Below are positions 5,432-53,482 of a DNA stretch of 64,000 nt, one piece after another. Source of the stretch: Hysterangium stoloniferum (taxonomy: Eukaryota > Basidiomycota > Agaricomycetes > Hysterangiales > Hysterangiaceae); assembly GCA_015178975.1 (NCBI GenBank), contig WHVD01000001.1, positions 868,001 to 932,000 on the forward strand, read 5' to 3'. The notes under the pieces were generated by a model. That model did no database searches. It saw nothing but the letters and a program-made list of their open reading frames with translations, and was not told where the DNA came from. The position numbers were made by a program, and so were the translations under genes. Each line of letters opens with the position of its first letter. The first letter of the stretch is position 1.

Positions 5432-11495
<6,064 letters not shown>

Positions 11496-13366: not shown

Positions 13367-13633
13367 ATATTTGGGCCTTGAAATAGACACTATCACCATG
13401 GAAGCATGCTATCAGGTTGCACAAAAGGGTTGCCAGCAACTGCAGAGTTAGAGGAGATGGTGGATTAGGTGAATTGCTAATAAAGTACTTTTTTTCAATG
13501 TAATATGACTGGGCAATGATGGTCTTCTCTTTTGAAATGTAGTAAGGCATAAAAATGATACATAAGTGAGATAAATTGGAGTCATTTCAGGAATGAATTT
13601 GAATTTCTACATGGGGGGGATCAGCAATACTGT

Positions 13634-13996
13634 GCAAAGAGTCACAAAGAGTCTAAAAGAGTCACAAACAATCTAAGAGAGTCTAAAAGAGTTGCAAAGA
13701 GTCTAAGAGTGTCACAAAATGTTGCAAAGAGTCACAAAGAGTCTAAAAGAGTCACAAATGATCTAAAAGAGTCTAAAAGAGTTGCAAAGAGTCTACCAGA
13801 GTTGCAAAAGTCTAAAAGAGTTGCAAACAATCTAAAAGAGTTGCAAAAAGTCTAAAAGAGTTGCAAAGAGTCTAAAAGAGTTGCAAAAAGTCTAAAAGAG
13901 TTGCAAAGAGTCTAAAAGAGTCACAAAGAGTCACAAAGAGTCACAAACAATCTAAAAGAGTCTAATAGAGTCTAAAAGAGTTGCAATGAATCACAC
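13634..13996 (+). repeat. Minisatellite of roughly 10-bp units (AGAGTC TAAA / AGAGTT GCAA / AGAGTC ACAA)
   Basis: About 360 bp built from three alternating decanucleotide-like words: gagtctaaaa, gagttgcaaa and gagtcacaaa, with acaatctaaa variants. The order of the words is irregular, so it is a higher-order mixture and not one pure unit. The repeat degrades towards aatcacactgta words up to about 14,040. Confidence 0.85.
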
Positions 13997-14611
13997 TGTA
14001 GCCTCTTAAATATTTGTGAATCACAATAAATCACACTGTATCCTTTTGAATATTTGCGAATCATGCTGAATCAGGAAAAATCGGTTCAGGGTTTCTCATC
14101 TTGAAAAACCTTTAAGAAACTCATGGGAAATTGACAATTTCTTCATGATTTCACAAACACATTTTTTGAATTTCCATAGTGTTTGTGACAAGGAAAATTT
14201 TGTTGAAATATATAATTATTCAATGATTTTACATATAATTAAATTGTAAATTTCATTATGGTTTTCCCCTTGACAAAACATTAAGAAAATTTTGTCTTGG
14301 CACAAAATTTTTTCAGGCAGAAAATCATAGTTTTCACTCAGTTCCCTGAGAGGCAAATTGAGTAGAAATATGTAGTTTTTAATTGATTTCTCTAGGCACA
14401 TTATTACAGTTTTCATAGGATTTTGTTGGGTGGAAAAACCTTAACAAAATACAGGGTTTTTTAAGAGTTTTCTCATCCATAAAATCCATAAAAAATAGGC
14501 TATTTCTAACAATGTTTCCTCACAATTTCCTGATACAAATTTTTAGGAATTTCAGATACAATTTTTGGCCTCAGAAAAACCTACTAAAACTCAAAAATTT
14601 CAAACATTTTT
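13997..14611. other. AT-rich stretch, no gene seen
   Basis: A low-GC sequence between the minisatellite and the integrase end of the decayed Ty3 element. If that element had a 3' LTR it should lie here, but I could not find TG...CA ends or a matching second copy. Confidence 0.4.
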
Positions 14612-29347: not shown

Positions 29348-29736
29348 GAGATGCTTAGAGATCACAGTAGTGGGGGCTGCAAGCATAAAACCATCATCAT
29401 TTGCAGATTAATACCCTGAACTATCCATTTATTGCCCACAAGGTCTCCAATGTAAATGGGTATCAGTCTTGCTGATTCTGGTTCAATTGTGCAATCCTCT
29501 AGTGCTCATGCGACTCTTTCTGTGCACACCCCTCTGTCTGGTCTGGAAGTTAACTTGGGCTGATCATTGGGTCATTCTTCAAAGGGGGCTTTACTAATCA
29601 AGAAGGTTAGGGGCTGTGACTCCTTCAAAGAACTGGCTGGGATGGATCCTATTCTTCCAGGGAGGATAAACCTGGATCCTAATGGTTGATTTCTCAGAGT
29701 CCTGATTTTATAATTAATGTGAACGTCTTCCCCTAG
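29348..29736 (-). pseudogene. Downstream part of an old Ty3 protease region, split from 40,531-40,800
   Basis: Minus-strand text LGEDVHINYKIR at 29,736-29,700 continues the frame of TIPI at 40,531 once the LTR at 38,068-40,530, element B1 and one copy of each target duplication are removed. The phrase TIPI-LLGED-NY is typical of mushroom Ty3 protease/linker regions. Further stops occur downstream. It is dead. Confidence 0.65.
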
Positions 29737-30302
29737 TGTTAAGTGCCATGTCAGGAACTTATTCCGGAACTATCGGAAAGTCACCAGGAAGTCGGAAACT
29801 CGTGGATAGGGTCAGGACGTCGGCTTCAGCTTATGTGCTGCGCCTCTACGCAAATGCTCAATGTCCTTAATTTCGGAAGTAAAACTTACAACAGAAGATA
29901 TGGATATTCAGAGTTCCGAAGAGTTCCAAATATCGAGCATACAGAAAGATGGGAGGAGGAATAAGAAACTAAGTCGATATCAGATCTAAGGTAAAGTACA
30001 AATTTGTGGAAACTAATATAAGTCTACTCGTTATTGTACTACAAACTAAGACCATAATAAGATGGAAATGGAAGTGTTCTTTAAAACAGAAATACAATAA
30101 GACATATTAGGGAGACAATATTCCGAAACGGGAATACAACAAACAAATGAGTGAATACTTGTCAACGGACAAATTACCAAATGTGGAACAAGGGAAGAAT
30201 GTGGATGATACGGTAACTGTGATGTTCCGTAGTCAGGGATCGGAAGTCGGAAGTTGGATATCGGAAGTCAGATATTGAAACATCCGGGAACGGGTCGTAA
30301 CA
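29737..30302 (-). repeat. 3' LTR of B1
   Basis: 566 bp, same length as the partner at 37,489-38,054 and nearly identical to it by eye, which implies a fairly recent insertion. The hairpin motif (plus-strand cggcttcagcttatgtgctg) starts near 29,821, about 85 nt from the 3' end in element sense. Confidence 0.9.
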
Positions 30303-30314
30303 GTACCCCCCTGT
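30303..30314 (-). promoter_or_regulatory. Polypurine tract of B1 next to the 3' LTR
   Basis: The minus strand reads AACAGGGGGGTAC immediately before TGTTACGACC of the 3' LTR. The run of six G is the expected second-strand primer site, and it confirms that the element's sense strand is minus. The same sequence flanks the 3' LTR of B2 at 47,244. Confidence 0.7.
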
Positions 30315-30430
30315 TAGGCCGAAATCCCATAGAGGCGATTAGGTACTGAGTGATTGAAGCGACGGCTGATTATTATGTGTCGTGAAATTTACGCAATTCT
30401 GGAGGTGAGAGTTTCGGCTGATGTGCTGAG

Positions 30431-30437
30431 TATAAAA
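30431..30437 (+). promoter_or_regulatory. TATA box of the antisense accessory gene in B1
   Basis: TATAAAA on the plus strand 50 bp upstream of the ATG at 30,487. The same box and spacing occur in B2 (47,372-47,378; ATG 47,428). It lies inside the retroelement, between the 3' LTR and pol, and points opposite to retroelement transcription. Confidence 0.65.
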
Positions 30438-30486
30438 ACCTTCAAATATTCGAATTAACGTTTTTGTTTCTTTATCCACAACTTGT

Positions 30487-31606
30487 ATGTCGATTCGTTG
30501 GCCGTTATTCATCACTACCCCGGAAGACTCAGATACCGAAATTGCCATTCTACAAAAAATGTCGAAGGTCGCAGAACTTCAACAAAAACGACAAAAGATG
30601 GAGGAGTTGAAGCGACGACAAGAGGAGGAGGAGAAGGCGTTGATGCAGGAGTTGAAAGATGCGGAAGATGCGGAGAAACGGGAGTTGGAGCGGGTGAAGG
30701 CGGAGGCGGAGGCTCAGAAAAGGAAGGAAGAGTTGGAAAGGTTACAGCAGGAAGCGGAGGTGGTGAAAAAACTCAAGGAGGTAAGGGAAGGAAAGGTAAG
30801 TTCTGTCCATAGATTCTGTGATTTCAACCGATAACTATTGGGTACAGCGAAAAGCCGTGGAGGTGGAGGTAGAGGGAGAAGCTGGGCCTTCGAGTCCTAA
30901 AGTAAGTGCATCTGCAAAAGATCGGTAATTGACTAATCTTCCGAAACAGAAACAAAAGGTCAAGGCTCCAGAACGGATGGAAATTGTCCATGAAAATCCG
31001 TGTTATCGATGTTCCATACGGACTATGACATGTTGGAAGCAGAAGGTAAAATGGGGCGGAACTTGCTATCCCTGCGCGGTCCTCAAACTTCCGTGCACTC
31101 TTGCTGCGAAAAGGGTTCCGAAAGGTGAGAAGGCTCAGAAGGCTAACGACGTGGAAGGTTCGGGAACAGCTAGGGCTGTGGAAACTGAGGTGCCGAAATC
31201 AGACAGTACGGGCATTGAGCTCCTCAAGGACACCGTTGACACATTAGTTTTTATCGGGACGGAAGTCATGAAAATGCGGGACACAATGAATCACCATAAT
31301 GATATCCAGGAGAAAGGTTTCCGTTCGTTGATCCGGAACTTCCAGAGGCAAAACGAATTCCTGGAGAAGATAATGGTTAGCATCGGTGTGATTGCAGTAT
31401 CCGAGAGGTTTTCCGATAAGGCACGGGAAAAGCCTAATGATCCGTTGGTGGAATGTGTCGAACAGAGGTGGGAGTCAGGGAAAGGGCCGGAAGAATCGGA
31501 GAGTGAGGATGAAGAGGTGCAGGATATGGTGGAAAGTGCGGAAATTGCTGATGAGACAGAAGTTGGGATGGAAAGTGGATTTGGGGTATCGGAGACTTTA
31601 AGATAG
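30487..31606 (+). CDS. Antisense accessory gene of B1: coiled coil plus Zn2Cys6-like cluster, two introns
   Basis: This gene sits on the strand opposite gag-pol and converges with pol, which ends about 100 bp away at 31,707. Exon 1 is 30,487-30,795, intron 1 GTAAGT...TACAG (30,796-30,847), exon 2 30,848-30,901, intron 2 GTAAGT...TGACTAAT...ACAG (30,902-30,949), and exon 3 30,950-31,606. Both introns are phase 0 and splicing gives 339 residues. Residues about 25-103 are a highly charged helical segment. C139, C142, C149, C160, C163 and C170 fit CX2CX6CX10CX2CX6C, the spacing of fungal Zn2Cys6 clusters, but without the usual basic patch. A second helical stretch lies at about 195-260 and the tail is acidic. 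It is possibly a DNA-binding or Gag-interacting regulator of the element. That is inference. Exon borders were deduced, not observed. Confidence 0.75.
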
Positions 31607-31706
31607 TCCTAATAATATATTTTTTGACTTGCAAAACCTAAAAACGAGTGTGATATCAGAAGTATCGGGAGTGTCGGAAACTGAACAGAAAGAAAACAGA
31701 AAAGGG

Positions 31707-34700
31707 TTAGAGTGACGATAAAGGTCCGGGTTTACTTGGATAAGCCATGTGGAAGTTGGTGACAATTTCCATAGCGTGTCCAAGTTCCGTGGCCAATATC
31801 CACGAAGTTTCCTGGTCGGTACCTTCATAACCTGCCCATTTGACTAAATAGAGCAATTTACAAGTACGTCGGCGATTGTCGATTTTAGAATCCAAAATTT
31901 CGGAAACTTCAAATTCAGGTTCTCTGTCAATAATGACCGGAGGGGACGGAGGTTGAATACGTTCCGGGATTTTGTTAGGAACACAGGGTTCTAACATGGA
32001 AACGTGGAAAACGGGGTGAACTGCTCGCATACTATCAGGAAGTCGGAGAGTCCATGAGAGTGAACCGGCTTGTGCTATAATTTCAAAAGGTCCTAAGAAT
32101 TTCTCAGCAAGTTTTTTAGAAGGTCGGGTAGTACGGAAGAATTGAGCTTTTACAAAAACCTGATCACCGATTTTAAAGTTAGGAGGCAGGATCCTGTTTT
32201 TGTCTGCAGAACGTTGATAATATTCCTGTGCGGAAGAAATAGCTTTCCGTAGTTCTTGATGTAATTCGTCGAGGTCGGTAATAAATTCTTGAGCACGGAC
32301 AGAAGCCAAATCTCATTCAGAATGTACGGTGAGATTCGGATTATAGCCTTTGTTGGTGAAGAAAGGAGATACGCCAGTAGTTGCATTCGGGGAGTTATTG
32401 TAGGCAAATTCCGTGATCGGAAGAAGGGATTTCCAATTGTCCTGTTGATAATTGCAATAGATGCGAAGATATTGTTCCAATGTTTGATTTACACGTTCCG
32501 TTTGTCCATCACCTTCCGGGTGATATCCCGAGGTGAAGTGTAATTTCATGTCGAGGGCTTTTCCGAGGGCCTGGAAGAAATGGGAGACGAACTTGGAGCC
32601 TCGATCGGAAGTTATGTGAGACGGAACTCCGTGTTTGGAAAATACGTGAATAATGAAAAGTTCCGCTAATTGTAAGGATGTGATTGTATCATGAGTGGGT
32701 ATGAAAATGCCTTGTTTCGAGAATCGATCCACAACAACTAGAATGGATGTAAAGCCTTCGGAAGTTGGGAGTTGTTCGATAAAATCCATGGAAATTGAAT
32801 TCCAGGGTTTTTCCGGTATCGGGAGTTGCTTGAGAAGGCCGTATGGCTTATGCCTCTGGGTCTTAGAGCGTAAGCAGGTGGTGCATGACTTACAGAATTG
32901 GGTTACGAAATCTCGGAGGTTGGGCCAAGTATATTCTCTATGGATTAAACCAAGAGTATTGTTAATGCCGTAATGTCCGGAGATTGGATGATCGTGTTTA
33001 TACTGAAGTACGCAGAGTCGGAGATTGTTGGAATCTGGAACATAGATACGTCCATCGAGACGGATAAAACCTTGAGAGTCCTGTGACCATCGGGGTTGGT
33101 CCGGATTGTCAGGAACTTCTAGGTGTGGCTTGAGAACCGGATCGGAAGTGAGTGCGGAAAGGATATCTTGATGTAACTGTTCAATGTCCATAATCATGAC
33201 GCTACGCATAATTGGATAGTAGAGGGAAGTTGCTCGGATAGATGCGGAAAGTTGTTGCGTTGTAAAAACTGGTTTCAAGTTATGTGGATTAACAACGGCA
33301 TAATTACTTTCCCCCTCTTTAGGATAGACGTCCCATTGTCGAGTCATGGCATCTGGTTTTCCACCAAGACGTCCGGGTCGGAAACGGATAATCATATTGA
33401 AAGCGGAAAGGAATTCAGACCAGCGGGTTTGCCGGCGGGTTAAAAGTTTAGTGGTAGAAAAATATTCGAGATTTTTGTGATCGGTAACAACGTCAACGGG
33501 AGTTGAGGAACCTTCGAGATAATGGCGCCAATGTTTAAAAGCTTCAAAAATTGCCAAAAGTTCCTTATCATGAACATCGTAGTTGAGTTCAGATACTGAA
33601 AGTGTCCGAGAAAGAAATGCGACCAGATGAATTTCACCGTCGGAATCTTAAATGGAAAGAATTGCGGCAATTGCATAATTGGAAGCATCAGTTTCCACAA
33701 TAATCAGAACATCAGGTTTCCAATGGGAAAGGATCGGGGCAGAAGTGAAAGCATTTTTTAAAGTCTGAAAAGCGGAGCGGCATTTGTCGTCAAAGACCCA
33801 TGGTTGAGTTTTACGGGTAAGACAAGTGAGCGGTACTGTAATATCCGAGTAGTTACGAATAAAACGACGGTAAAAGTTGGTGAAACCTAAAAATGACTGA
33901 ATATCCTTGACTTTCCGTGGTTCGGGCCAATCACGGACAACTTGAACTTTGGTTTCATCCATACAGAGACCATCAGGTCGGATAATAAAACCTAAGTATT
34001 CAATAGAATCCATGTCAAAGTAGCATTTTTTACCGTTGGCGAAAAGACCGTTTTTACGGAGTCTTCGGAAAACTTCACGGACTTGTTCATCGTGAAGAGC
34101 GGGATCTTCGGAAAATACCAAAATGTCGTCCAAATAGACTATAACACATACGTCAAGCATGTCGGAAAATATATCATTAACAAAATGTTGAAAAGTGGGA
34201 GGGGCGTTGGTAAGGCCGAACGGCATAACCAACCATTCAAAGGATCCATAACGAGTCCAAAAAGCAGTTTTCCATTCATCGCCCTTGGCAATTCGGACCA
34301 AATGATAGGCGTGTTTGAGGTCTATTTTGGTGTAGATCCGAGCTTTCCGTGGGGCGTCGAGTAAATCAGTAACGAGTGGAAGTGGATACTTGTCTTTCCA
34401 TGTGATGGAATTTAATCCTCTGAAATCGACACAGAGTCGAAGGGAGCCGTCCTTCTTTCTGACGAAAAGGACGGGTGCTCCATACGGAGACTTTGAGGGA
34501 CGGATAAAACCTATCGACAAATGTTCATCCAGGAACTCCCGAATAGATGAAAGTTCTGATTGGGATAATGGGTAAATAGGTCCTAACGGAGGGTTTGAAC
34601 CGGGCTCAATATCGATTTTTAAGTCGTAAGGCCTATGTGGTGCAAGCCGGTCAGCTTTTTGCTTACTGAAAATGTCCGCGAAATCATGGTATTTTTGGGG

Positions 34701-35395
34701 AACTCCTTCCAGATCGGCTTTTAGCTCAGATAATTCTGGAGTCGCAAAACGTCCAGATGCTTCATCAACTTTTAAGCTGATTGAAAAACACTGCGAACCA
34801 TCCAGTTTACTCACCCTAACAAATGCCGAAGCGTTGATAAGAGAGATTTTTGGAGGCACGGAGGTTTCGGTAGAAGCTGGAGGTGCTGTAGATGCCAAAA
34901 AGGCATTGGCCGGAAGAGACGCTGCAGGAGGAACCAAAGTTTCGGGAATTCGGAAATTAATACTGCCCAATACCCAGTCAATCAACGAATTATATCAGGT
35001 GAGCCAGTTGTATCCAAGAACTACCGAACAGCTAGAGTCCAACTGTGTTACGAAAAAAGTAACCGTCTGGGATGTTCCACAAGGGAACCGGATAGACATG
35101 TCACAGGCTTGAGTAATTGCCGTATTGCTAGTGCCGTCAAACAGACGCAAGGAAATTGCGGGAACAGAATGGAGTTTCAGATTATGTTTCGTGGCAAAGG
35201 TGGTATCTACAAAACAGTGTGTGGAGCCGGAATCTATTAGAGCTCGGAACACTAAATTTCCAAGAAAGTCAGAAACGAGTTTTACAAATAATGAATCGGG
35301 ATTAGAGAGAGCGGACGCATTGAGACAGATAACCTCGGAAACACAGAGAGAGTCAACGCAACCCTCTGTCCGTGCAGATTCCGGAAGGTTGCTTA
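31707..35395 (-). pseudogene. Pol of B1: PR-RT-RNase H-IN-chromodomain, three stops
   Basis: One continuous frame, -1 relative to gag. Protease ALIDSGSTHCFVD lies near 35,240 and the NWLT motif is followed by a TGA (34,995). RT has LCVDFRGLN near 34,430 and YLDDILVFS near 34,120. RNase H starts IVETDASNYAI near 33,690 and meets a TAA at 33,648 (B2 has CAA). Integrase has an HHCC zinc finger with CKSCTTC near 32,890, catalytic MDFIEQL, TSDRGSKF and the E in DGQTERVNQTLEQ near 32,490. A TGA lies at 32,313 (CGA in B2). The chromodomain is EVSEILDSKI...YLVKWAGYEGTDQETSWI near 31,900-31,800. Without the three C-to-T stops the frame would be intact. Confidence 0.9.
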
Positions 35396-36586
35396 CTCTT
35401 TTTTCGGCTCCGTGGCGGGTTTTTCCTTGGACATTGTAGTCGTAGTGGAAGTTGCCGTGCGGGCCTTGGAAGAGTTAGATTTAACGGTACAGTCGGAAAC
35501 CTTGTGTCCACCTTTCCCGCAGAAAAGGCAGAGGTCGTTGTCCATACGTCGTTGTTTCTCCTTCAGGGTGAGTTTACCGTCGGTACCCAACAAATGGGAA
35601 ATGTCAGGTTTGTCGGAAGTTGACTGTTTTTCCTTGTTGGATTTCTTGTCTTTTTTCCGGTCGGAGTTTGATTTGCCAGTATTAGTGCCAGAGTTGCCGG
35701 TGTTATTGCCTGAGTTGTTGCCGGAAGACTTGCTAGTCGACGCCTTGTTGTTCTGAGAACGTTCTGTCGGGTTCTCTCGAGAAACCTCAGCTTTTCGTTC
35801 CCAATAACGGGCATCGGATGTTTGAGCTTTCATCCGCATGAGTTGGAGAGTTTTTGGCTTCCCATCTTTGCAGATTTTGTCTTTAAGGCGTGACGGAAGT
35901 CCCATATAGAAATGGTGTCTGAGGGCGGAATTGTCCCATCCACATCGTGCGGCGAGGGTATTGAACTTGACGAGATAATCGGAAACTCGTTGATTGTCCT
36001 TCATCTTAAGCGTCATTAATTCATTTTCTGCTTCGCCGGTTTGATCGTAAGGTCCGAAATTAGTCTCCAGTTCTTCCACAAAAGCATCCCAGTTGTCGAG
36101 CCATACGGGTGTCTCGTCGGATATTCCAGATAGTCCGGGTTCGAACCAATCTTGAGCGGTATCCTTGAGATAAGAGAGTGCAAAATTGACTTTTTGACTG
36201 TCGGATTTAAAAGCATTGGGTCGATCACGGAAACTGAAATGGCATTGAAGAAGGAAATTCTTCAATTTTTTCGGATCCTTGCCGGTAAATGGTTCGGGTT
36301 CTTTGACTCTGGTGTGGGAAGATTCTTTACTATCCTCAGCGGATTTCAAATAGTCAGTGAATTTCACAATGGAGTTGATAAACAACATTTCAGTTGGTTC
36401 GTCGGAAGATTTCTTTTTCGATGTTTCCGGCTGATCTTCTGGTTCGTTGTCGAAAGTGTGGGGAACATTGGTGTCCTTTGTTACCTCGGTAACCTCCTCG
36501 GTAACTTCTTCGACTGAAGCTGATGTTGTCGGCTGAAAAGGGGTTTCGGATTGAGTGGTGTAAAGTTGCAACGGGGATTGAAGTTG
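35393..36586 (-). pseudogene. Gag of B1, separated from its start codon by a solo LTR
   Basis: Capsid text FALSYLKDTAQDWFEPGLSG near 36,150, DWDAFVEELETNFGPYD-like text near 36,060, an Asn/Ser/Gly linker near 35,720 and one CCHC knuckle CLFCGKGGHKVSDC near 35,520. The frame ends KKE-TAA at 35,393-35,395. B2 shows that the natural start is MGPKCKAAEGP. In B1 the corresponding codons (MRPKRKAAEGP) lie at 37,453-37,421 on the far side of the LTR at 36,592-37,418, so the ORF as it stands has no ATG at its beginning. Confidence 0.85.
35399..35405 (-). promoter_or_regulatory. Candidate -1 frameshift site at the gag end of B1
   Basis: In gag frame the codons are CCG AAA AAA GAG TAA, and pol continues in the -1 frame as VSNLPESARTEGC. 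The G AAA AAA heptamer is weaker than the A AAA AAA of B2. The arrangement is the same in element A. Confidence 0.5.
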
Positions 36587-36591
36587 GGATG

Positions 36592-37418
36592 TGTTAGGAT
36601 ACACACACAGGCCGGGTTTCCGGAGAAACCCGCGGGATATCCGGTAGGACTTGGCTTCAGCTTATAGGCTGCGCCCTCGCTAGATCGTGTTGTCCAATTT
36701 CAAACGGATGGACGGGGATCCCGGGGTGTCCGGGCAGGGTTCGTGGGTCGTAGGTTGTAAGTCGGGGGTCGTGGGTCGTGGGTCGTGAGTCGAGTTGGTT
36801 GAGAGAGATAGATGTGCCAGAGCCCGTGGGCTCTGACTAGTGCGAGCGATGTGAATCGAGTAAGGTTTTTAGAGCAGAAAATATTATTAGATTACTGGGG
36901 GGAATCTAAGCTAATTTTCTGACTGGATTGTATGTACAACATCTGCCAGTTTATATAGACCATGGAGTGAATGACATACCAAATCCAGTAATGGCGAAAC
37001 GAAACTAACAAAACATGAAACAGGAATAGTAAACACCAAATTGGTGTTAGGAACGGAACGGAACGGAGCGGAGTCCGAATCGTGACAAAGCATAACCCAT
37101 AACGGGAAACGGAGCAGGAGCGGAGTCCTAAATCGTGACAGGTCATTTGACTAAAACGGGAACGGGGCTCGATTAGAGCGGTAACGGGATTCTAAGCGGG
37201 GGCTGGTGACTGATGCGTGGGACGAAGACGGACATAGACAGAGACGGAGTCCGGGGGAAGTCCGGTGACTGATATGTGTCGTAATGAGGTCGAACATAAC
37301 GAGTCTTGACGTAACGGAGTCCGGGTGGGAAATCCTATAAACAGACGATTGGTGCTTGTAGCGCGTGGGGGCGTACGGGTTAGTGCCCGGAGTCCGGTGG
37401 GATTGTCCAGTCGTAACA
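36592..37418 (-). mobile_element. Solo LTR inserted in gag of B1, target duplication GGATG
   Basis: On the minus strand TGTTACGACTGG (37,418) to TCCTAACA (36,592). GGATG lies at 36,587-36,591 and 37,419-37,423. B2 has an uninterrupted sequence at the same place (near 52,835). It is the same family as the 5' LTR of element A. It contains the hairpin motif near 36,650 and a second hairpin at 36,614-36,631. Confidence 0.93.
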
Positions 37419-37488
37419 GGATGGTCCTTCGGCAGCTTTGCGTTTGGGACGCATGATGAGCGAGTCGCAGAGTTGAGATCTGATATAC

Positions 37489-38054
37489 TGTTAAGTGCCA
37501 TGTCGGGAACTTATTCTGGAACTATCGGAAAGTCACCGGGAAGTCGGAAACTCGTGGATAGGGTCAGGACGTCGGCTTCAGCTTATGTGCTGCGCCTCTA
37601 CGCAAACGCTCAATGTCCTTAATTTCGGAAGTAAAACTTACAACAGAAGATATGGATATTCAGAGTTCCGAAGAGTTCCAAATATCAAGTGTACAGAAAG
37701 ACGGGAGGAGGAATAAGAAACTAAGTCGATATCAGATCTAAGGTAAAGTACAAATTCGCGGAAACTAATATAAGTCTACTCATTATTGTACTACAAACTA
37801 AGACCATAATAAGACGGAAATGGAAGTGTTCTTTAAAACGGAAATACAATAAGACATATTAGGGAGACAATATTCCGAAATGGGAATACAACAAACAAAC
37901 GAGTGAATACTTGTCAACGGACAAATTACCAAATGCGGAACAAGGGAAGAATGCAGATGATACGGTAACTGTGATGTTCCGTAGTCGGGGATCAGAAGTC
38001 GGAAGTTGGAGATCGGAAGTCGGATATTGAAACATCCAGGAACGGGTCGTAACA
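37489..38054 (-). repeat. 5' LTR of B1
   Basis: 566 bp, TGTTACGACCCG ... GGCACTTAACA on the minus strand. The leader to gag is about 35 bp in the uninterrupted element and begins GTATATCAGATCTCAAC, with no canonical tRNA-complementary TGG site. The hairpin motif starts near 37,573. Confidence 0.9.
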
Positions 38055-38875
38055 CCTAAAAGGATTGTGTTAAGGAGTGCGTGCAGAGCTTATCAGAGGG
38101 TTTCTGGAGAAACCTGTGGGAAAGCTGGTAGGACTTGGCTTCAGCTTATGGGCTACACCCTCGCGAGATCATGGTGTCCAATTTCAGACAGGGAGATGGG
38201 AATCCTGGGGAGTCTGGGAGTAGTTGATGGGTCAAGAGGTCAGAGGGTCAATTGTGGGAATCCTGAAGAGGTCGAGGGGTCAGGTGGTGATGGGTCAGAG
38301 GTAGAGTGATAGATAGGTTGGAGCCTGTGGGCTCCAATGAGGTAAATAGCAGTGTGTGTGTTTCAAAGAGAGGAATAGAGTGGAAAATGTACTGAGATTA
38401 CTGGGGGGATCTAAGCTAATTTTCTGACTGGATTGTATGTACAACATCTGCCAGAATATATAGGCTGTGGAATGTATGTTATACCAAATCCAGTAATAAT
38501 GAAATCCTAAACAAGTAATCATGAAACAAGATGAGTAAACACCAAACTAAATATTAGGGATGGAACGGAAGGGAGGCGGAGTCCAAAACATGACAGGTCA
38601 TTAGAACATAACAGGAATGGGGTGGTAGCAGAGTTCGGAACATGACAGGTCATTTGACCATAATGGGAATGGGGCTCAGTTAGAGAGCTGACGGGTTTTC
38701 TGAGTGGGGTCCAGTGACTGATGTGTGGGACAGGGTCGGAGATAGACAGCTATGACATGCACGGGTCCTGGTGGGTATTCCAGTGATTGGTACATGAGAC
38801 AATGAAGGTCAGGCATGGACAGGTTCATCATCTGGGTTCCAGCAGGTATTCTGGTTAACTGATAACTGTTGCATA

Positions 38876-40469
38876 CAGTGACCCAAAAAAGCGTCCGGAT
38901 GTTTGGTGAAATTGGAAAGATGGGTTTGCAGCTCTAGAAATAAAATAGATAAAATTCTGAATAAATAAAAGGTAAGAGGTATACATCTGACCTACATGAT
39001 GACATAAGCATAACATCATAGCTTTCCTTATCAGGGAAGTAGGAAATGAACAATGGACATGGTGCATCCGGACATTTTTTTTGCTCTGTCAACTGATACA
39101 TGAAACTCAATAAGGTTCATATAACTGTGGGAATTTCTGGTTAGGTTCAACAATGTCATGTGACCACATGTTTAAATAACACATTTACATGAACCTTTGC
39201 CTCAATTCACCCCCCCACCACATGATGAAGAAGCACTCTACTGAAACAAGGCTCTCTGTCATTTCTCTTCTCCAGGAAGGTCACTCCTGCAGAACAATTG
39301 CTTCTAAACTTCATATTGGGCACTCTACAGTATCAGAAATTCGCTTTCAACTCCCTGGTCCACTTCCAACACCTTCCAGAGGTTGTCCTCCCAAACTCTC
39401 CCCCAGGGATCATCACCACCTGGCTCGTTCTATCACCTCTGGACAGGTTGATAATGCCTCCCAAGCCAAGTCCCACCTCTCCCTCAATGTCTGCACACAG
39501 ACAATTAGAAATGCATTGAAGAAAGAGAATTTGAAGGCTGTGGTGAAGGCCAAAAGACCTCTTCTTGCCTGTCGACACATCAAGGCTCAATATGAGTTTG
39601 CTATCAAGTACCAGCATTGGACTGAGGAGGACTGGTTTAGGGTTATCTTCTCAGATGAGACCAAAATCAATCGTTTGGGCTCTGATGGGAGGTTGTGGGT
39701 ATGGAAAAGACCAGGTTCTGCAGTCACTCAGCAGCATATCAATGGAACTATCAAATTTGGAGGGGGGAGTCTAATGATTTGGGGATGTATGACAGCACAT
39801 GGTGTGGGGTACATGTGCAAGATAGATGGGAGGATGGATGGGGAGATGTACAAGGACATATTGGAGGACTATATCTTCAAAACAGTGGAGTATTATGGGA
39901 TGGACAGGGAAAGGTTTGTCTTCCAGCAGGACAATGACCCTAAACACACTTGCAAGTTGGCCAAGGATTGGTTCAAGGACCATCAGGTGGAGGTTTTAGA
40001 CTGGCCTGCACAGTCTCCAGACCTGAATCCAATAGAACACTTATGGTGGGAGTTGAAGAGAAGGCTTGGAACATACCCTGAGGCACCCAAGAGCATATTG
40101 GAGCTCTGGGAGAGAGTGGAGGTGGAATGGGAGGGTATTCCAAGGGAGAAATGCCTTGAATTGATCAAGAGCATGCCTAGAAGGGTTGCTGCAGTACTAA
40201 AGGCCAAGGGGGGGTACACTAAATACTGAAACTGGTAAAAACTAGTAATTAATTACAAGAGCAAAAAAAGTGTCCGGATGCACCATGTCCATTATTAATT
40301 TCCTACTTTCCTGATAAGGAAAGTTATGATGTCATGCTTATGTCATCATGTAGGTCAGATGTATACCTCTTACCTCTGATTTATTCAGAAATTTATCTAT
40401 TTTATTTCTGGAGCTGTAAACCCATCTTTCCAATTTCACCAAACATCCAGATGCTTTTTTGGGTCACTG
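38876..40469 (+). mobile_element. Apparently intact Tc1-family transposon
   Basis: 1,594 bp starting CAGTGACCCAAAAAAGC and ending with the reverse complement, flanked by TA (38,874-38,875 and 40,470-40,471). The terminal inverted repeats are about 210 bp each (38,876-39,086 and 40,258-40,469). Each carries a GTCCGGATG core at the outer end and an inverted one at the inner end, an IR/DR-like layout that gives two likely transposase sites per end. It encodes one open transposase. It is the youngest layer of the nested stack. Confidence 0.93.
39189..40229 (+). CDS. Tc1/mariner transposase, DD34E
   Basis: 346 residues, uninterrupted. Cut-and-paste transposase that binds the element ends and inserts at TA. 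Residues about 20-110 form a paired-like helix-turn-helix region (LSVISLLQEGHSCRTIASK ... STVSEI). The catalytic triad is D156 (FSDETKIN), D248 (QQDNDPKH) and E283 ([11 protein letters not shown]), with 34 residues between D248 and E283. GGGSLMIWGC is the usual conserved box. The C-terminus RRVAAVLKAKGGYTKY is complete. Methionines 12 and 13 are alternative starts that would give the more usual Tc1 N-terminus. All catalytic residues are present, so activity is plausible. Confidence 0.93.
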   Translation: MNLCLNSPPHHMMKKHSTETRLSVISLLQEGHSCRTIASKLHIGHSTVSEIRFQLPGPLPTPSRGCPPKLSPRDHHHLARSITSGQVDNASQAKSHLSLNVCTQTIRNALKKENLKAVVKAKRPLLACRHIKAQYEFAIKYQHWTEEDWFRVIFSDETKINRLGSDGRLWVWKRPGSAVTQQHINGTIKFGGGSLMIWGCMTAHGVGYMCKIDGRMDGEMYKDILEDYIFKTVEYYGMDRERFVFQQDNDPKHTCKLAKDWFKDHQVEVLDWPAQSPDLNPIEHLWWELKRRLGTYPEAPKSILELWERVEVEWEGIPREKCLELIKSMPRRVAAVLKAKGGYTKY

Positions 40470-40530
40470 TATAGGGTGCAGGTGCATATAGGGCAATGCT
40501 CAGAGTCTGGTGGGTTTTCCAGTTGTAACA

Positions 40531-46657: not shown

Positions 46658-47243
46658 TGTTAAGTGCCGTGTCGGGAACTTATTCCAGAACTATCGGGAA
46701 GTCACCGGGAAGTCGGGAACAACTAGATAGGGTCAGGACGTCGGCTTCAGCTTATGTGCTGCGCCTCTACGCAAACGCTCAATGTCCTTAATTTTGGAGG
46801 TGAGACTTATGATGGGAGTTACGGATATTCAGAGTTCTGAAGAGTTCCGAATATCGAGCGTACAGAAAGACGGGAGAAGGAATAAGAAACTAAGTCGATA
46901 TCAGATCTAAAGTAAAGTACAAATTCGCGGAAACTAATATAAGTCTACTCGTTATTGTACTACAAACTGAGACCATAATAAGACGGAAACGGAAGTATTC
47001 TTAAAACGGAAATACAATAAGACATATTAGGAAAACAATATTTCGAGACGGGAATACAACAAACAAACGAGTGAATACTTGTCAACGGACAAATTACCAA
47101 ATGCGGAACAAACGAAGAACGCGGATGATACGGTAACTATGATGTTCCGTAGTCGGATATCGGATATCGAAAGTGGGAGATCGGAAGTTGGAAGTGGGAG
47201 ATCGGAAGTCAGATATTGAAACATCCGGGAATGGGTCGTAACA
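46658..47243 (-). repeat. 3' LTR of B2
   Basis: 586 bp, TGTTACGACCC ... CACTTAACA on the minus strand, preceded in element sense by the same G-run polypurine tract as B1. The hairpin motif starts near 46,741. The two B2 LTRs differ in length by 9 bp. Confidence 0.9.
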
Positions 47244-47427
47244 GTACCCCCCTGTTAGGCCGAAATCCCATAGAGGCGATTAGGTACTGAGTATTTGAAG
47301 CGACGGCTGACTGTTATGTGTCGTGAAAATTACGCAAATATGGAGGTGAGAGTTTCGGTTATTATTCTGAGTATAAAAACCTCCAAATATTCGAATTAAC
47401 GTTTTTGTTTCTTTATCCACGACTTGT

Positions 47428-47868
47428 ATGTTGATTCATCGGCCGTTATTCATCACTACCCCGGAAGACTCAGATACTGAAATATCCATCCTGCAAAGAA
47501 TGTCGAAGGTCGCAGAACTTCAACAAAAACGCCAGAAAATGGAGGAGTTGAAGCGACGACAGGAGGAGGAGGAAAAAGCGTTGATAAAAGAGTTGAGGGA
47601 TGCGGAAGAGGCGGAAAAACGGGAATTGGAGCGGGCGAAGGCGGAAAAAGAAAAAGAGTTGGCGAGGTTGCGGAAAGTGATGGAGGATCGGAGGTTGAAG
47701 GAAGAAGAAGTGAAGAAACAACAAGAAGCTGAGGCGGCGGAAAAACGTAAGGAGGTAAGGGAAGGAAAGGTGAGTGAAGATGAGGAGGTACAGGATATGG
47801 TGGAAAGTGCGGAGGTTGCAGGAGATGAAGTGGAAGGCGGATTTGGGGTGTCAGAGACTTTGAGATAG
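47428..47868 (+). CDS. Shortened antisense accessory ORF of B2, coiled coil only
   Basis: 146 residues from an ATG 56 bp after a TATA box at 47,372. Its N-terminus matches the B1 protein (ITTPEDSDTEI, MSKVAELQQKRQKMEELKRR), and its C-terminus matches the last B1 residues (DEEVQDMVESAE...GFGVSETLR). The junction KEVREGKV-SEDEEVQ removes both introns, the second exon and the whole cysteine cluster in frame. An extra charged heptad-like insert (LARLRKVMEDRRLKEEEVKK) is present. It could be a deletion derivative that retains only the multimerising part. Whether it is expressed is unknown. Confidence 0.6.
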   Translation: MLIHRPLFITTPEDSDTEISILQRMSKVAELQQKRQKMEELKRRQEEEEKALIKELRDAEEAEKRELERAKAEKEKELARLRKVMEDRRLKEEEVKKQQEAEAAEKRKEVREGKVSEDEEVQDMVESAEVAGDEVEGGFGVSETLR

Positions 47869-47953
47869 ATTTAATAATATTTTTGACTTGCAAAACCTAA
47901 AACGAGTGTGAAAATGGAAGTGTCGGAAGTTGATCAGAAAAGGAACAGAAAGA

Positions 47954-50900
47954 TTAGAGTGATGATAAAGGTCCGGGTTTGCCTGGATAAGCCGTGTGGA
48001 AGTCAGTAACAATTTCCATAGCATGTCCAAGTTCCGTGGCCAATATCCATGAAGTTTCCTCGTCGGTACCTTCATAACCTGCCCATTTGACTAAATAGAG
48101 CAATTTACAAGTACGTCGGCGATTGTCGATTTTAGAATCCAAAATTTCGGAAACTTCGAATTCAGGTTCTCCATCAATGATGACCGGAGGGGACGGAGGT
48201 TGAATACGTTCCGGGAATGACTTAGGAACACAAGGTTCTAGCATGGAAACGTGGAAAACGGGGTGGACTGCTCGCATACTGTCGGGAAGACGGAGAGTCC
48301 ATGAAAGTGAACCGGCTTGTGCTATAATTTCGAAAGGTCCTAAGAATTTCTCAGCGAGTTTTTTAGAAGGTCGGGTAGTACGGAATAATTGAGCTTTTAC
48401 AAAAACCTGATCACCAACTTTAAAATTAGGAGGCGGGATCCTGTTTTTGTCCGCGGAACGTTGATAATGTTCCTGTGCGGAAGAAATAGCTTTCCGAAGT
48501 TCTTGATGTAATTCGTCGAGGTCGGTAATAAATTCTTGAGCACGGACAGAAGCCAAATCTCGTTCGGAATGTACTGTGAGATTCGGATTATAGCCTTTAT
48601 TGGCGAAGAAGGGAGATATGCCGGTGGTTGCATTCGGAGAGTTATTGTAGGCGAATTCCGCGATCGGAAGAAGGGATTTCCAGTTGTCCTGTTGATAATT
48701 ACAATAGATGCGGAGATATTGTTCCAATGTTTGATTAACACGTTCCATTTGTCCATCACCTTCCGGGTGATATCCCGAGGTGAAGTGTAGTTTCATGTCG
48801 AGGGCTTTTCCGAGGGCCTGGAAGAAATGGGAGACGAACTTGGAGCCTCGATCGGAAGTTACGTGAGATGGAACTCTGTGTTTGGAAAATACGTGAATAA
48901 TGAAAAGTTCCGCTAATTGTAAGGACGTGATTGTATCATGAGTGGGTATGAAAATGCCTTGTTTCGAGAATCGGTCCACAACGACTAGAATGGATGTAAA
49001 GCCTTTGGAAGTCGGGAGTTGTTCGATGAAATCCATGGAAATTGAATTCCAGGGTTTTTCTGGTATCGGGAGTTGCTTGAGAAGGCCATATGGCTTATGC
49101 CTCTGGGTTTTAGAGCATAAGCAGGTGGTGCATGACTTACAGAACTGAGTTACGAAATCTCGGAGGTTGGGCCAAGTATATTCTCTACGGATTAAACCAA
49201 GAGTATTGTTGATGCCGTAATGTCCGGAGATTGGATGATCGTGTTTATACTGAAGTACGCGGAGTTGGAGATTGTTGGAATCTGGAACGTAGATACGTCC
49301 ATCGAGACGGATAAAACCTTGAGAGTCTTGTGACCATCAGGGTTGGTCGGGATTGTCGGGAACTTCTAAATGTGGCTTGAGGGCCGGGTCGGAAGTGAGT
49401 GCGGAAAGGATATCTTGATGTAATTGCTCAATGTCCATAATCATGACGCTACGCATAATTGGATAGTAAAGGGAAGTTGCTCGGATAGATGCGGAAAGTT
49501 GTTGCGTTGTAAAAACCGGTTTCAGGTTATGTGGATTAACAACAGCGTAGTTACTTTCCCCCTCTTTAGGATAGACGTCCCATCGTCGAGTCATGGCATC
49601 TGGTTTTCCACCAAGACGTCCGGGTCAGAAACGGATAATCATGTTGAAAGCGGAAAGAAATTCAGACCAACGGGCCTGCCGGCGGGTTAAAAGTTTAGTG
49701 GTAGAAAAATATTCGAGATTTTTGTGATCGGTAATGACGTCAACGGGAGTTGCGGAACCTTCGAGATAATGGCGCCAATGTTTGAAAGCTTCAAAAATTG
49801 CCAAAAGTTCCTTATCATGAACGTTGTAATTGAGTTCGGATACTGAAAGTGTCCGAGAAAGAAATGCGACCGGATGAATTTCACCGTCGGACTCTTGAAT
49901 GGAAAGAATCGCGGCAATTGCATAATCGGAAGCATCGGTTTCCACAATAATTGGAAAATCAGGTTTCCAATGGGAAAGAATCGGGGCAGAAGTGAAAGCA
50001 TTTTTTAAAGTCTGGAAGGTGGAGCGGCATTTGTCGTCAAAAACCCATGGTTGAGTTTTACGGGTAAGACGAGTGAGCAGTACTGTAATATCCGAGTAGT
50101 TCCGAATAAAACGACGGTAAAAGTTGGCAAAACCTAAAAATGATTGAATGTCCTTGACCTTCCGTGGTTCGGGCCAGTCACGGACAACTTGAACCTTGGT
50201 TTCATCCATACGGAGACCATCAGGGCCGATGATGAAACCTAAGTATTCAAGAGAATCCATGTTGAAATAACATTTTTTACCGTTGGCGAAAAGACCGTTT
50301 TTACGGAGTCTTCGGAAGACTTCACGGACTTGTTCATCGTGAAGAGCGGGATCCTCGGAAAATACCAAAATGTCGTCCAAATAGACTATAACACATACGT
50401 CAAGCATGTCGGAAAATATATCATTAACAAAACGTTGAAAAGCGGAAGGGGCGTTGGTAAGGCCGAACGGCATAACCAACCATTCAAAGGATCCATAGCG
50501 AGTCCGAAAAGCAGTTTTCCATTCATCACCCTCGGCAATTCAGACCAAATGATAGGCGTGTTTGAGGTCTATTTTGGTGTAAATTCGAGCTTTCCGTGGG
50601 GCGTCAAGTAAGTCGGTAACGAGTGGGAGTGGATACTTATCTTTCCGTGTGATGGAATTTAACCCTCTGAAATCAACACAGAGTCGAAGAGAGCCGTCCT
50701 TCTTTCGGACAAAAAGGACAGGTGCTCCATACGGAGACTTTGAGGGACGGATAAAACCTATCGACAGATGTTCATCCAGGAACTCCCGAATAGACAAAAG
50801 TTCCGATTGGGATAATGGGTAAATAGGTCCTAATGGAGGGTTTGAACCGGGCTCAATATCGATTTTTAAGTCGTAGGGCCTATGTGGTGCAAGCCTGTCA

Positions 50901-51642
50901 GCTCTTTGCTTACTGAAAATGTCCGCGAAATCATGGTATTTTTCGGGAACTCCTTCCAGATCGGCTTTTAGCTCGGATAATTCTGGAGTCGCAAAATGTC
51001 CAGATGCTTCATCAACTTTTAAGCTGATCGAAAAACATTGCGAGCCATCCAGTTTACTCGCCCTAACAAATGCCGAAGCGTTGATGAGAGAGATTTTTGG
51101 GGGCTCGGAAGTTTCGATAGAAGCCGGAGATGCCGTTGATGCCGAAAAGGCGTTGGCCGGAAAAGACGCTGCAGGAGGAACGGAAGTGTCAGGAGTCCGG
51201 AAAGTAATACTGCCCAATACCCAGTCAATCAACGGATTATATCAGGTGAGCCAGTTGTATCCAAGAACTGCCGAACAGCTAGAGTCCAACTGTGTTACGA
51301 AAAATGTAACCGTCTGGGATGTTCCACAAGGGAACCGGATAGACATGTCGCAGGCTTGAGTAATTGCCGTATTGCTAGTGCCGTCAAACAAACGCAAGGA
51401 AATTGCGGGAACAGAATGGAGTTTCAGATTATGTTTCGTGGCAAAGGTGGTATCTACAAAACAGTGTGTGGAGCCGGAATCTATTGGAGCTCGGAACACT
51501 AAATTTCCAAGAAAGTCAGAGACGAGTTTTACAAATAATGAATCGGGATTAGAGAGAGCGGACGCGTTGAGACGGACAACCTCGGAAACATGGAGAGAGT
51601 CAACGCAACCCTCTGTCCGTGCAGATTCCGGAGGGTTGCTTA
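47954..51642 (-). pseudogene. Pol of B2: PR-RT-RNase H-IN-chromodomain, four TGA stops
   Basis: The same domains as B1 in one frame. APIDSGSTHCFVD lies near 51,485 with a TGA after NWLT (51,242), then [11 protein letters not shown] near 50,670 with a TGA after KHAYHLV (50,540) and YLDDILVFS near 50,370. RNase H has IVETDASDYAI near 49,940, followed by TGA at 49,625 (IIRF-stop-PGRL) and at 49,337 (DQP-stop-WSQD). Integrase and chromodomain (YLVKWAGYEGTDEETSWI near 48,060) are complete. Each stop is a CGA codon in a relative or is best explained as one. Confidence 0.9.
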
Positions 51643-52866
51643 CTCTTTTTTTGACTCCGTGGCGGGTTTTTCCTTAGACGTCGTAGTCGTAGTGGAAGTT
51701 GCCGCGCGAGCCTTGGAAGAGCTGGATTTAACGGTACAGTCAGAAACCCTGTGTCCGCCTTTCCCGCAGAAAAGGCAGAGGTCGTTGTCCATACGTCGTT
51801 GTTTCTCCTTCGGGGTGAGTTTACCGTCGGTACCCAACAAATGGGAAATGTTGGGTTTGTCGGAAGTTGACTGTTTTTCCTTGTTGGATTTCTTGTCTTT
51901 CTTCCGGTCGGAATTTGATTTGCCAGTATTAGTGCCAGAGCCGGTATTATTGCCTGAGTTGTTGCCAGAAGACTTGCTAGTTGATGCCTTGTTGTTCTGA
52001 GAACGTTCCGTCGGGTTCTCTCGAGAGACCTCGGCTTTTCGTTCCCAATAACGGGCATCGGATGTTTGAGCTTTCATCCGCATGAGTTGGAGAGTTTTTG
52101 GCTTCCCATCTTTGCAGATTTCGTCTTTAAGGCGTGACGGAAGTCCCATATAGAAATGGTGCCTGAGGGCGGAATCGTCCCATCCACATCTTGCGGCGAG
52201 GGTATTGAACTTGACGAGGTAATCGGAAACTCGTTGATTGTCCTTCATCTTGAGCGTCATTAGTTCGTTTTCTGCTTCGCCGGATTGGTCATAAGGTCCG
52301 AAATTAGTTTCCAGTTCTTCCACGAAAGCATCCCAGTCGTCGAGCCATACAGGTGTCTCGTCGGATATTCCAGATAGTCCGGGTTCGAACCAATCCTGAG
52401 CGGTATCCTTGAGATATGAGAGCGCAAAATTGACTTTTCGACTGTCGGATTTAAAAGCATTGGGTCGATCACGGAAACTGAAACGGCATTGAAGAAGGAA
52501 ATTCTTCAATTTTTTCGGATCCTTGCCGGTAAATGGTTCGGGTTCTTTGACTCCGGTGCGGGATGATTCTTTGCTATCCTCAGCGGATTTCAAATAGTCA
52601 GCGAATTTCACAATGGAGTTGATAAACAACATTTCAGTCGGTTCGTCGGGAGATTTCTTTTTCGATGTCTCCGGCTGATCTTCTGCTTCGTTGTCGGAAG
52701 TATGGGGATCATTGGGATCCTTCGTTACCTCAGTAACCTCCTCGGTAACTTCTTCGATTGAAGCTGATGTTGTCGGCTGAATTGGGGTTTCGGGTTGGGT
52801 GGTGTAAAGTTGCAACGGGGATTGAAGTTGGGGTGGTCCTTCGGCAGCTTTGCATTTGGGACCCAT
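51640..52866 (-). CDS. Gag of chromovirus B2
   Basis: 408 residues, open from the ATG at 52,866 (MGPKCKAAEGP) to TAA at 51,640-51,642. The structural protein forms the cytoplasmic particle and binds RNA. Thr/Glu-rich N-terminus to about residue 90. Capsid region about 110-260 with SYLKDTAQDWFE and WDAFVEELETNFGPYD. Basic Asn/Ser/Gly linker about 285-335. CCHC knuckle CLFCGKGGHRVSDC near residue 370. The last codons TCA AAA AAA GAG TAA form a slippery stretch leading into pol. This is the best-preserved retroelement ORF in the window. Confidence 0.9.
   Translation of the reverse strand: MGPKCKAAEGPPQLQSPLQLYTTQPETPIQPTTSASIEEVTEEVTEVTKDPNDPHTSDNEAEDQPETSKKKSPDEPTEMLFINSIVKFADYLKSAEDSKESSRTGVKEPEPFTGKDPKKLKNFLLQCRFSFRDRPNAFKSDSRKVNFALSYLKDTAQDWFEPGLSGISDETPVWLDDWDAFVEELETNFGPYDQSGEAENELMTLKMKDNQRVSDYLVKFNTLAARCGWDDSALRHHFYMGLPSRLKDEICKDGKPKTLQLMRMKAQTSDARYWERKAEVSRENPTERSQNNKASTSKSSGNNSGNNTGSGTNTGKSNSDRKKDKKSNKEKQSTSDKPNISHLLGTDGKLTPKEKQRRMDNDLCLFCGKGGHRVSDCTVKSSSSKARAATSTTTTTSKEKPATESKKE
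51646..51652 (-). promoter_or_regulatory. Slippery heptamer A AAA AAA at the gag/pol junction of B2
   Basis: The heptamer is in the gag frame, one codon before the gag stop, and pol follows in the -1 frame as RVSNPPESARTEGCV. This is the classical -1 programmed frameshift layout. A downstream stimulatory structure was not evaluated. Confidence 0.6.
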
Positions 52867-52900
52867 GATGAGCGAGTCGCAGAGTTGAGATCTGATATAC

Positions 52901-53477
52901 TGTTAAGTGCTGTGTCGGGAACGTATTCCGGAACTATCGGGAAGTCACCGGGAAGTCGGGAACAACTAGATAGGGTCAGGACGTCGGCTTCAGCTTATGT
53001 GCTGCGCCTCTACGCAAACACTCAATTTCGGAGGTGAGACTTATGATGGGAGTTACGGATATTCAGAGTTCCGAAGAGTTCCGAATATCGAGCGTACAGA
53101 AAGACGGGAGAAGGAATAAGAAACTAAGTCGATATCAGATCTAAAGTAAAGTACACATTCGCGGAAACTCATATAAGTCTACTCGTTATTGTACCACAAA
53201 CTGAGACCATAATAAGACGGAAATGGAAGTATTCTTAAAACGGAAATACAATAAGACATATTAGGAAAACAATATTTCGAGACGGGAATACAACAAACAA
53301 ACGAGTGAATACTTGTCAACGGACAAATTACCAAATGCGGAACAAACGAAGAACACGGATGATACGGTAACTATGATGTTCCGTAGTCGGATATCGGATA
53401 TCGAAAGTGGGAGATCGGAAGTCGGAAGTGGGAGATCGGAAGTCGGATATTGAAACATCCGGGAACGGGTCGTAACA
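52901..53477 (-). repeat. 5' LTR of B2
   Basis: 577 bp, TGTTACGACCC ... CACTTAACA on the minus strand. The hairpin motif starts near 52,984. The leader to the gag ATG is 34 bp. Confidence 0.9.
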
Positions 53478-53482
53478 GCCAG

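Follow-up and report, generated by a model that had tools for sequence, protein, structure and literature searches.

A predicted intron-bearing antisense gene with a Zn2Cys6-like cysteine cluster in a lineage of fungal chromoviruses

Our analysis of 64,000 nucleotides of fungal DNA (the window; G000:C1:868001-932000) points to an intron-bearing gene that runs antisense between pol and the 3' LTR of a Ty3-type chromovirus. Judged by its sequence, this gene is almost certainly real: the signals conserved among its copies, their low dN/dS, the same plan in the further groups B, C and C2 and its presence beside pol together argue for a protein-coding gene of the lineage. We propose that it is a conserved accessory gene and a likely nuclear regulator of the element's own expression, a reading for which we consider the scales about level. 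Such a regulator is the most likely role given the combination of selection at the protein level, a stretch resembling a nuclear localisation signal, a DNA-binding-like cluster and an acidic tail. The window belongs to a 111-Mb assembly of 554 contigs.

Element A and the structure of its antisense gene

The gene lies in element A, which is a chromovirus, that is, a Ty3/Gypsy element with a chromodomain: its C-terminal pol region (31710-32309) matches the chromodomain PF00385 (E 2.5e-6, 27.7 bits against a cut-off of 25.1) and, in the Pfam scan, SH3_Tf2-1 (PF24626, E 1.4e-20). The two LTRs (29734-30302 and 37486-38054, 569 bp each) differ at 24 sites, 22 of them transitions, and a CX2CX4HX4C knuckle can be read from the Gag translation. 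This copy is decayed, since pol is spread over three ORFs and the start of gag has been split off by a nested insertion at about 36592-37418. The alignment with element B2, a second element in the window, stops at 36591 and restarts at 37419, and the repeats D6-D8 fall within the insertion. The features of element A and of its antisense gene are as follows.

29734-38054, minus strand: element A, Ty3-type chromovirus, LTR to LTR (from the LTR pair)
30303-30340, minus strand: polypurine-tract block adjoining the 3' LTR, kept in A, B, C and C2 (upstream-block alignment)
30431-30437, plus strand: putative TATA core of the antisense gene, 56 nt 5' of the ATG; TATAAA in 39 of 39 copies
30487-30795, plus strand: exon 1, charge-rich N-terminal part, 103 codons; dN/dS 0.19
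30796-30847, plus strand: intron 1, 52 nt, phase 0, GT-AG; GT in 38 and AG in 38 of 39 copies
30848-30901, plus strand: exon 2, 18 codons; free of indels in 39 copies
30902-30949, plus strand: intron 2, 48 nt, phase 0, GT-AG, with a branch-like site, ttgactaat; GT in 39 and AG in 38 of 39 copies
30950-31606, plus strand: exon 3, with the cysteine cluster, C-terminal part, acidic tail and stop; dN/dS 0.23
31001-31096, plus strand: six-cysteine cluster CX2CX6CX10CX2CX6C within exon 3, residues 139-170
31607-31706, no strand: gap of 100 nt on which the 3' ends of the antisense gene and of pol converge; many indels among copies
31707-34985, minus strand: pol in three broken ORFs (ORF list)
35393-36604, minus strand: gag ORF (ORF list)

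The gene lies on the plus strand, with the 3' LTR (inner edge at 30302) on one side and the end of the pol ORF (31707) on the other, and thus has the position and orientation of an aORF-3R, antisense between pol and the 3' LTR. It runs from an ATG at 30487 to a stop at 31604-31606 and would encode 339 amino acids. A preliminary description made from the sequence had proposed a TATA box, an ATG and three exons held in frame across two phase-0 GT-AG introns, with a branch-like site in the second and six cysteines at a fixed spacing. All of these were found at the level of the sequence, the cysteines at residues 139, 142, 149, 160, 163 and 170.

The surroundings of element A hold other repeats. 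A Tc1/mariner-like transposon (38873-40472) has a 346-aa ORF (39189-40229) with DDE_3 and HTH_Tnp_Tc3_2 domains, flanked by 215-bp inverted repeats that are 94% complementary, and ORFs of Ty1/copia type lie at 59595-63849, with gag_pre-integrs and Pol_BBD domains in 59909-61288. A direct repeat (100-1853 and 9431-11196, about 9.33 kb apart) shows 83-87% identity; nearby ORFs look by eye like pieces of an ABC transporter, and a Pfam scan of the one ORF scanned there, 1418-2161, gave no match. A minisatellite with a period of 10 bases occupies 13603-14051.

Conservation and selection across copies

For the comparison of copies, we aligned 39 genomic copies out of 40 loci, plus B2, anchored on the window copy; locus L040, which was matched in pieces, was left out. 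The ATG is kept in 39 of 39 copies, and 11 of the 39 have neither a stop nor a frameshift, so that, together with the splice sites listed above, the frame whose loss had been named as evidence against the gene is conserved. Lengths divisible by three make up 13 of 22 distinct indels in exons and 1 of 16 in introns, or 47 of 57 and 2 of 81 when counted per copy; because shared indels are inherited and the alignment is anchored on the window copy, these are not counts of independent events. The cysteines of the cluster are kept in 39, 38, 39, 39, 38 and 38 of the 39 copies, and Cys290, outside the cluster, in 31.

Over the 339 codons, pairwise counts among the 39 copies gave dN 0.076, dS 0.339 and dN/dS 0.22 (codon bootstrap 0.177-0.277), figures that are descriptive, without a likelihood test, as the copies are related to one another. 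The preliminary description had held that a value near 1 would count against the gene, and what we observe lies far below it. The remaining plus frames gave 1.15 and 0.95 and the minus frames 1.04, 1.18 and 0.30, the last of these because that frame shares its wobble (third) position with the gene. Third codon positions are more variable (0.184) than the other two (0.078 and 0.085). For the pol tail (last 200 codons, 36 copies), dN/dS was 0.229; the constraint on the antisense gene therefore equals that on the pol tail, its dN and dS both being about twice as high.

Two other sources of this pattern were considered and rejected. A sense-strand gene would have to lie in minus frames that average 3.2-9.5 stops per copy over exon 3; the frame of the antisense gene has a mean of 1.7 there, frameshifted copies counted. 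CpG decay as the cause of the low ratio is ruled out since dN/dS drops to 0.13 once CpG codons are removed. Among the stop codons in the aligned frame, 44 of 49 fall at a CGA or CGG of the window copy, which is what the loss of methylated CpG in inserted copies should produce.

Related groups and association with pol

The gene is not confined to element A. A 24-base pattern across the border of exon 2 and intron 2 (at most 3 mismatches) has 298 occurrences in the genome, and its reversed control has 0. We also searched the genome at the protein level with exon 3 (in one search with exons 2-3); 150 candidates were scored in each search, out of 864, 920, 1334 and 869, in overlapping sets. The survey of related chromoviruses called for earlier thus turned up antisense genes with the same exon plan in groups B, C and C2. 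The group B gene (L073, beside a 1304-aa pol ORF) would encode 294 amino acids in exons of 327, 57 and 501 bases, the group C gene (L075) 298 and the group C2 gene (L086) 292, with introns of 50 and 59 bases in C2. In C, intron 2 is assigned the second of two AGs because the first leaves an in-frame stop. Both introns are in phase 0 in all four groups and follow GK and SPK (SPQK in B), all six cysteines can be aligned, and the ATG is preceded by a TATA-like box at a distance of 56 (A), 59 (B), 63 (C, TATAAG) and 57 nt (C2).

The proteins themselves are diverged. Local alignments gave identities of 29% for A and B, 39% for A and C and 28% for B and C; C and C2 are 67% identical, with dN 0.23 and a dS of about 2.1, which is near saturation. 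Pol is 84% identical between A and B (180 residues) and 82-84% between A and C (200 and 148 residues).

Association with pol was assessed on 70 loci, the listed matches of one pol query, which sample this lineage and not the Gypsy elements of the genome at large. Beside 61 of these 70, a listed exon 3 lies 102-302 bp downstream on the opposite strand; the remaining 9 have at least a gene fragment past pol on the opposite strand, several of them truncated (tblastn, E <1e-4). Among these listed matches, the gene is therefore present in most copies of the family. The earlier proposal is supported in so far as the gene belongs to the element, is under purifying selection and is shared with other chromovirus groups.

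Several further observations concern these groups. Group B is apparently a young chromovirus group that also bears the antisense gene; many of its copies score identically, several have the 1304-aa pol ORF and some lie near contig ends. In B, C and C2, a motif resembling TGTGTCA...TCATGTGA precedes the antisense TATA box (L073 1861-2070 and the upstream blocks of L075 and L086). Judged by eye it occurs twice in B; it is less clear in A, and it may be a control element. Near another copy, L004 3459-4112 holds a second piece of the antisense gene, which is diverged (44% identity in one stretch) and breaks off into other sequence.

The window itself contains a shortened form of the gene in element B2 (46658-53478), whose LTRs differ at 14 of 578 sites and which has a 408-aa gag ORF.

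47428-47868, plus strand: antisense gene of element B2, shortened in frame to a 146-aa ORF

The deletion runs from within intron 1 to about residue 305 and removes the greater part of intron 1 together with exon 2, intron 2 and all six cysteines, the remaining ORF staying in frame. The N- and C-termini hence recur in B2, as described before, without the cysteine cluster. The idea of a mobile short form was dropped, as the deletion junction was found once in the genome.

Features of the predicted protein

The predicted protein begins with a charged region, followed by a KRKA...KKQK stretch and the cysteine cluster, and ends with a C-terminal part and its acidic tail. The KRKA...KKQK stretch corresponds to exon 2 with its borders and is encoded on both sides of intron 2, where GKRKA and SP are invariant in A, B and C, and it resembles a nuclear localisation signal, which may be its role. 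In the last 60 residues, D/E outnumber K/R by 20:5 (A), 17:4 (B) and 14:3 (C).

In A, B, C and C2 the cluster reads CX2CX6CX9-10CX2CX6C and fits CX2CX6CX5-12CX2CX6-8C, which we take to be the spacing of the Zn(2)Cys6 class. It shares this spacing with the fungal Zn(2)Cys6 (Gal4-type) factors of PF00172 but scores below their gathering cut-off: no other Pfam profile fits the isolated cysteine domains better than Zn_clus, which reaches 14.7 (B), 13.9 (C2) and 12.5 bits (C) against a cut-off of 21, and for B and C2 the best stretch is shifted in register, placing the first half of the domain on the second half of the profile. The profile search of the full 339-residue product of A, which had been suggested as a check, gave no Zn_clus match in Pfam up to E 10. 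In the class signature, the fourth of the residues that separate Cys 2 from Cys 3 is basic. Here that place is taken by Thr, Asn, Asn and Gly in A, B, C and C2, and an invariant Arg stands one place earlier, as the third residue after Cys 2. On account of the score, the register and the place of this Arg, we call the cluster Zn2Cys6-like and do not file it in the PF00172 family; the earlier label survives for the spacing and not for the profile, and binding of zinc and DNA is putative.

The coiled coil that had been suggested stays putative: the region is charged, and the heptad signal is mostly not significant, with p 0.13-0.66 for the N-terminal parts of A, B and C and 0.09-0.29 for the C-terminal parts, apart from C with one residue set (p 0.01). 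An AlphaFold model of exon 3 alone, of poor quality overall (pLDDT 47.5, pTM 0.21), predicts one long helix at modest confidence.

Searches among about 5.8 billion proteins, which need shared 5-residue words and may miss distant relatives, gave no homologue of A residues 115-290 at E 1e-3 and none of B residues 105-210 at E 1. A stretch of pol, run against the same proteins, gave 6217 matches of 8000 scored, some with basidiomycete names (Meripilus, Antrodiella, Pisolithus). In viral_contigs, there was no match for exon 3 and none for pol, and sequence searches of NCBIfam and PDB returned nothing useful.

Discussion

The features of the gene suggest how it might work. An antisense pre-mRNA would be made from an internal promoter whose TATA box lies just inside the 3' LTR. 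Its introns could be removed only from the antisense RNA, being in the wrong orientation in the sense genomic RNA, and because they are read backwards there they would survive retrotransposition. The resulting protein of 290-340 amino acids would enter the nucleus via the KRKA...KK stretch and bind DNA through a two-zinc six-cysteine cluster, and its acidic tail would alter transcription from the element's own LTRs, either upward for expression or downward for copy control. In outline, this would resemble the action of HBZ for HTLV-1. Genome-wide, we found no intron-free copy with patterns for junction 2 of A, junction 1 of B and junction 2 of C2, of which the first would detect 29 of the 39 copies if spliced and the other two are without such a control. 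By these three junction patterns, splicing has left no trace in the DNA.

The LTRs were also inspected for CGG triplets. Their CGG content is above that of shuffles and highest in a stretch of family B, with 33 direct pairs against 10.9 expected, where the borders of the LTRs are not fixed. As candidate binding sites in the LTRs, the triplets were set aside: observed over expected was 1.69-1.82 in the LTRs of A and B2, against 1.34-1.44 in gag, pol and the gene. The median over 112 tiles of the window was 1.17.

How far do other explanations account for these data? A chance ORF or an annotation artefact is refuted by the conserved signals in 39 copies, the kept cysteines and an exon plan that, like the cysteines, recurs in four groups although the proteins of A, B and C share only 28-39% identity. 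Nor is it at all probable that the function resides in the antisense RNA, through dsRNA and RNAi control of copy number, with the protein incidental. The gene does converge with pol, from which the preliminary description had inferred possible dsRNA, and such RNAs are discussed for plant elements in the available text of PMC7264820, but RNA alone leaves the selection at the protein level unexplained: a dN/dS of 0.22, third positions twice as variable as the others, in-frame indels in the exons and kept cysteines contradict it as the sole function.

The main rival, which we think unlikely though ahead of the others, takes the protein for an anti-silencing or chromatin factor that shields the DNA of the element from host methylation or heterochromatin. 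The CpG-like decay seen in the stops at CGA or CGG and in the LTR transitions indicates that the host may well methylate these elements, and each of the 70 listed pol copies has the gene, or at least a fragment of it, alongside. Against this, nothing ties the protein itself to methylation, and silenced copies would decay likewise with or without such a factor. Its presence beside the pol copies examined, with the NLS-like stretch and the cysteine-rich domain, would suit a part in the replication cycle: the protein might bind Gag or integrase, help to bring the preintegration complex into the nucleus or influence the choice of target. We rate this lower still, as distinctly improbable: it would be odd for a component of the particle to be supplied by an antisense transcription unit of its own, and Gag already has its CX2CX4HX4C knuckle.

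The antisense gene has relatives in kind. Zhao et al. (2011, Virology 417:248) reportedly described brtn, an antisense gene of Boty-like Gypsy elements in Botrytis cinerea. Antisense extra ORFs between pol and the 3' LTR are described for plant elements and for Boty of Botrytis and Sclerotinia in the parts of PMC7264820 available; the available text of PMC8365987 has brtn absent from the latest B05.10 annotation. Boty is thus a fungal element with an extra antisense gene in the same place, the difference being its ascomycete host. Plant Gypsy aORFs (Grande gene23, RIRE2, Retand TRP28) share the place and orientation of the gene of A; they occur in most copies and some of their products are nuclear (PMC7264820, PMC11963269, as far as the accessible sections go). 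Grande gene23 has its own promoter (PMC7264820), and the antisense TRP28 ORFs of Retand elements have predicted DNA binding (PMC11963269), both according to the same sections. The function of such accessory ORFs is called open in these portions of PMC7264820 and PMC11963269, with a regulatory role proposed, and the same portions mention no conserved introns or cysteine cluster for the plant aORFs. Two further differences are that Retand is a non-chromovirus lineage and that Pfam searches up to E 10 found no PF04195 (TRP28) match for A, B or C.

Antisense accessory genes in plant Gypsy elements and Boty mean that the kind is already known; the conserved introns and the cysteine cluster set the gene apart as new within it. 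In open-access literature, read at the level of titles and the starts of abstracts, we found no basidiomycete chromovirus described as having an antisense gene that is spliced and encodes a cysteine cluster. HBZ of HTLV-1, an analogue in the way it works, is a bZIP protein made from a spliced mRNA. Like the protein proposed here, it is nuclear and regulatory, and the antisense gene that encodes it sits at the 3' end of its retroelement (PMC11963269, available part), but its antisense promoter lies inside the 3' LTR (PMC7264820, available part), whereas the TATA box here stands just inward of that LTR.

More broadly, and more tentatively than for the regulatory role as such, it is possible that a lineage of chromoviruses, probably of basidiomycetes, has a zinc-cluster transcription factor of its own, encoded by an antisense gene with introns. 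The orientation would keep the introns through retrotransposition, and splicing would thereby separate the mRNA of the regulator from the genomic RNA. The regulator may track its own LTRs or an opposing host factor, as might be expected from its identity of 28-39% among A, B and C against 82-84% for pol of A compared with B and C.

The gene occurs in many copies in several groups, with a clear signature of selection at the protein level, in a class of genes whose function is open. Its short introns offer an unambiguous test at the RNA level, since a spliced junction arises only from the antisense strand. If our proposal is correct, fungal chromoviruses would carry a regulator of their own, as HTLV carries HBZ, and antisense orientation would be one way for a retroelement to retain a gene with introns.
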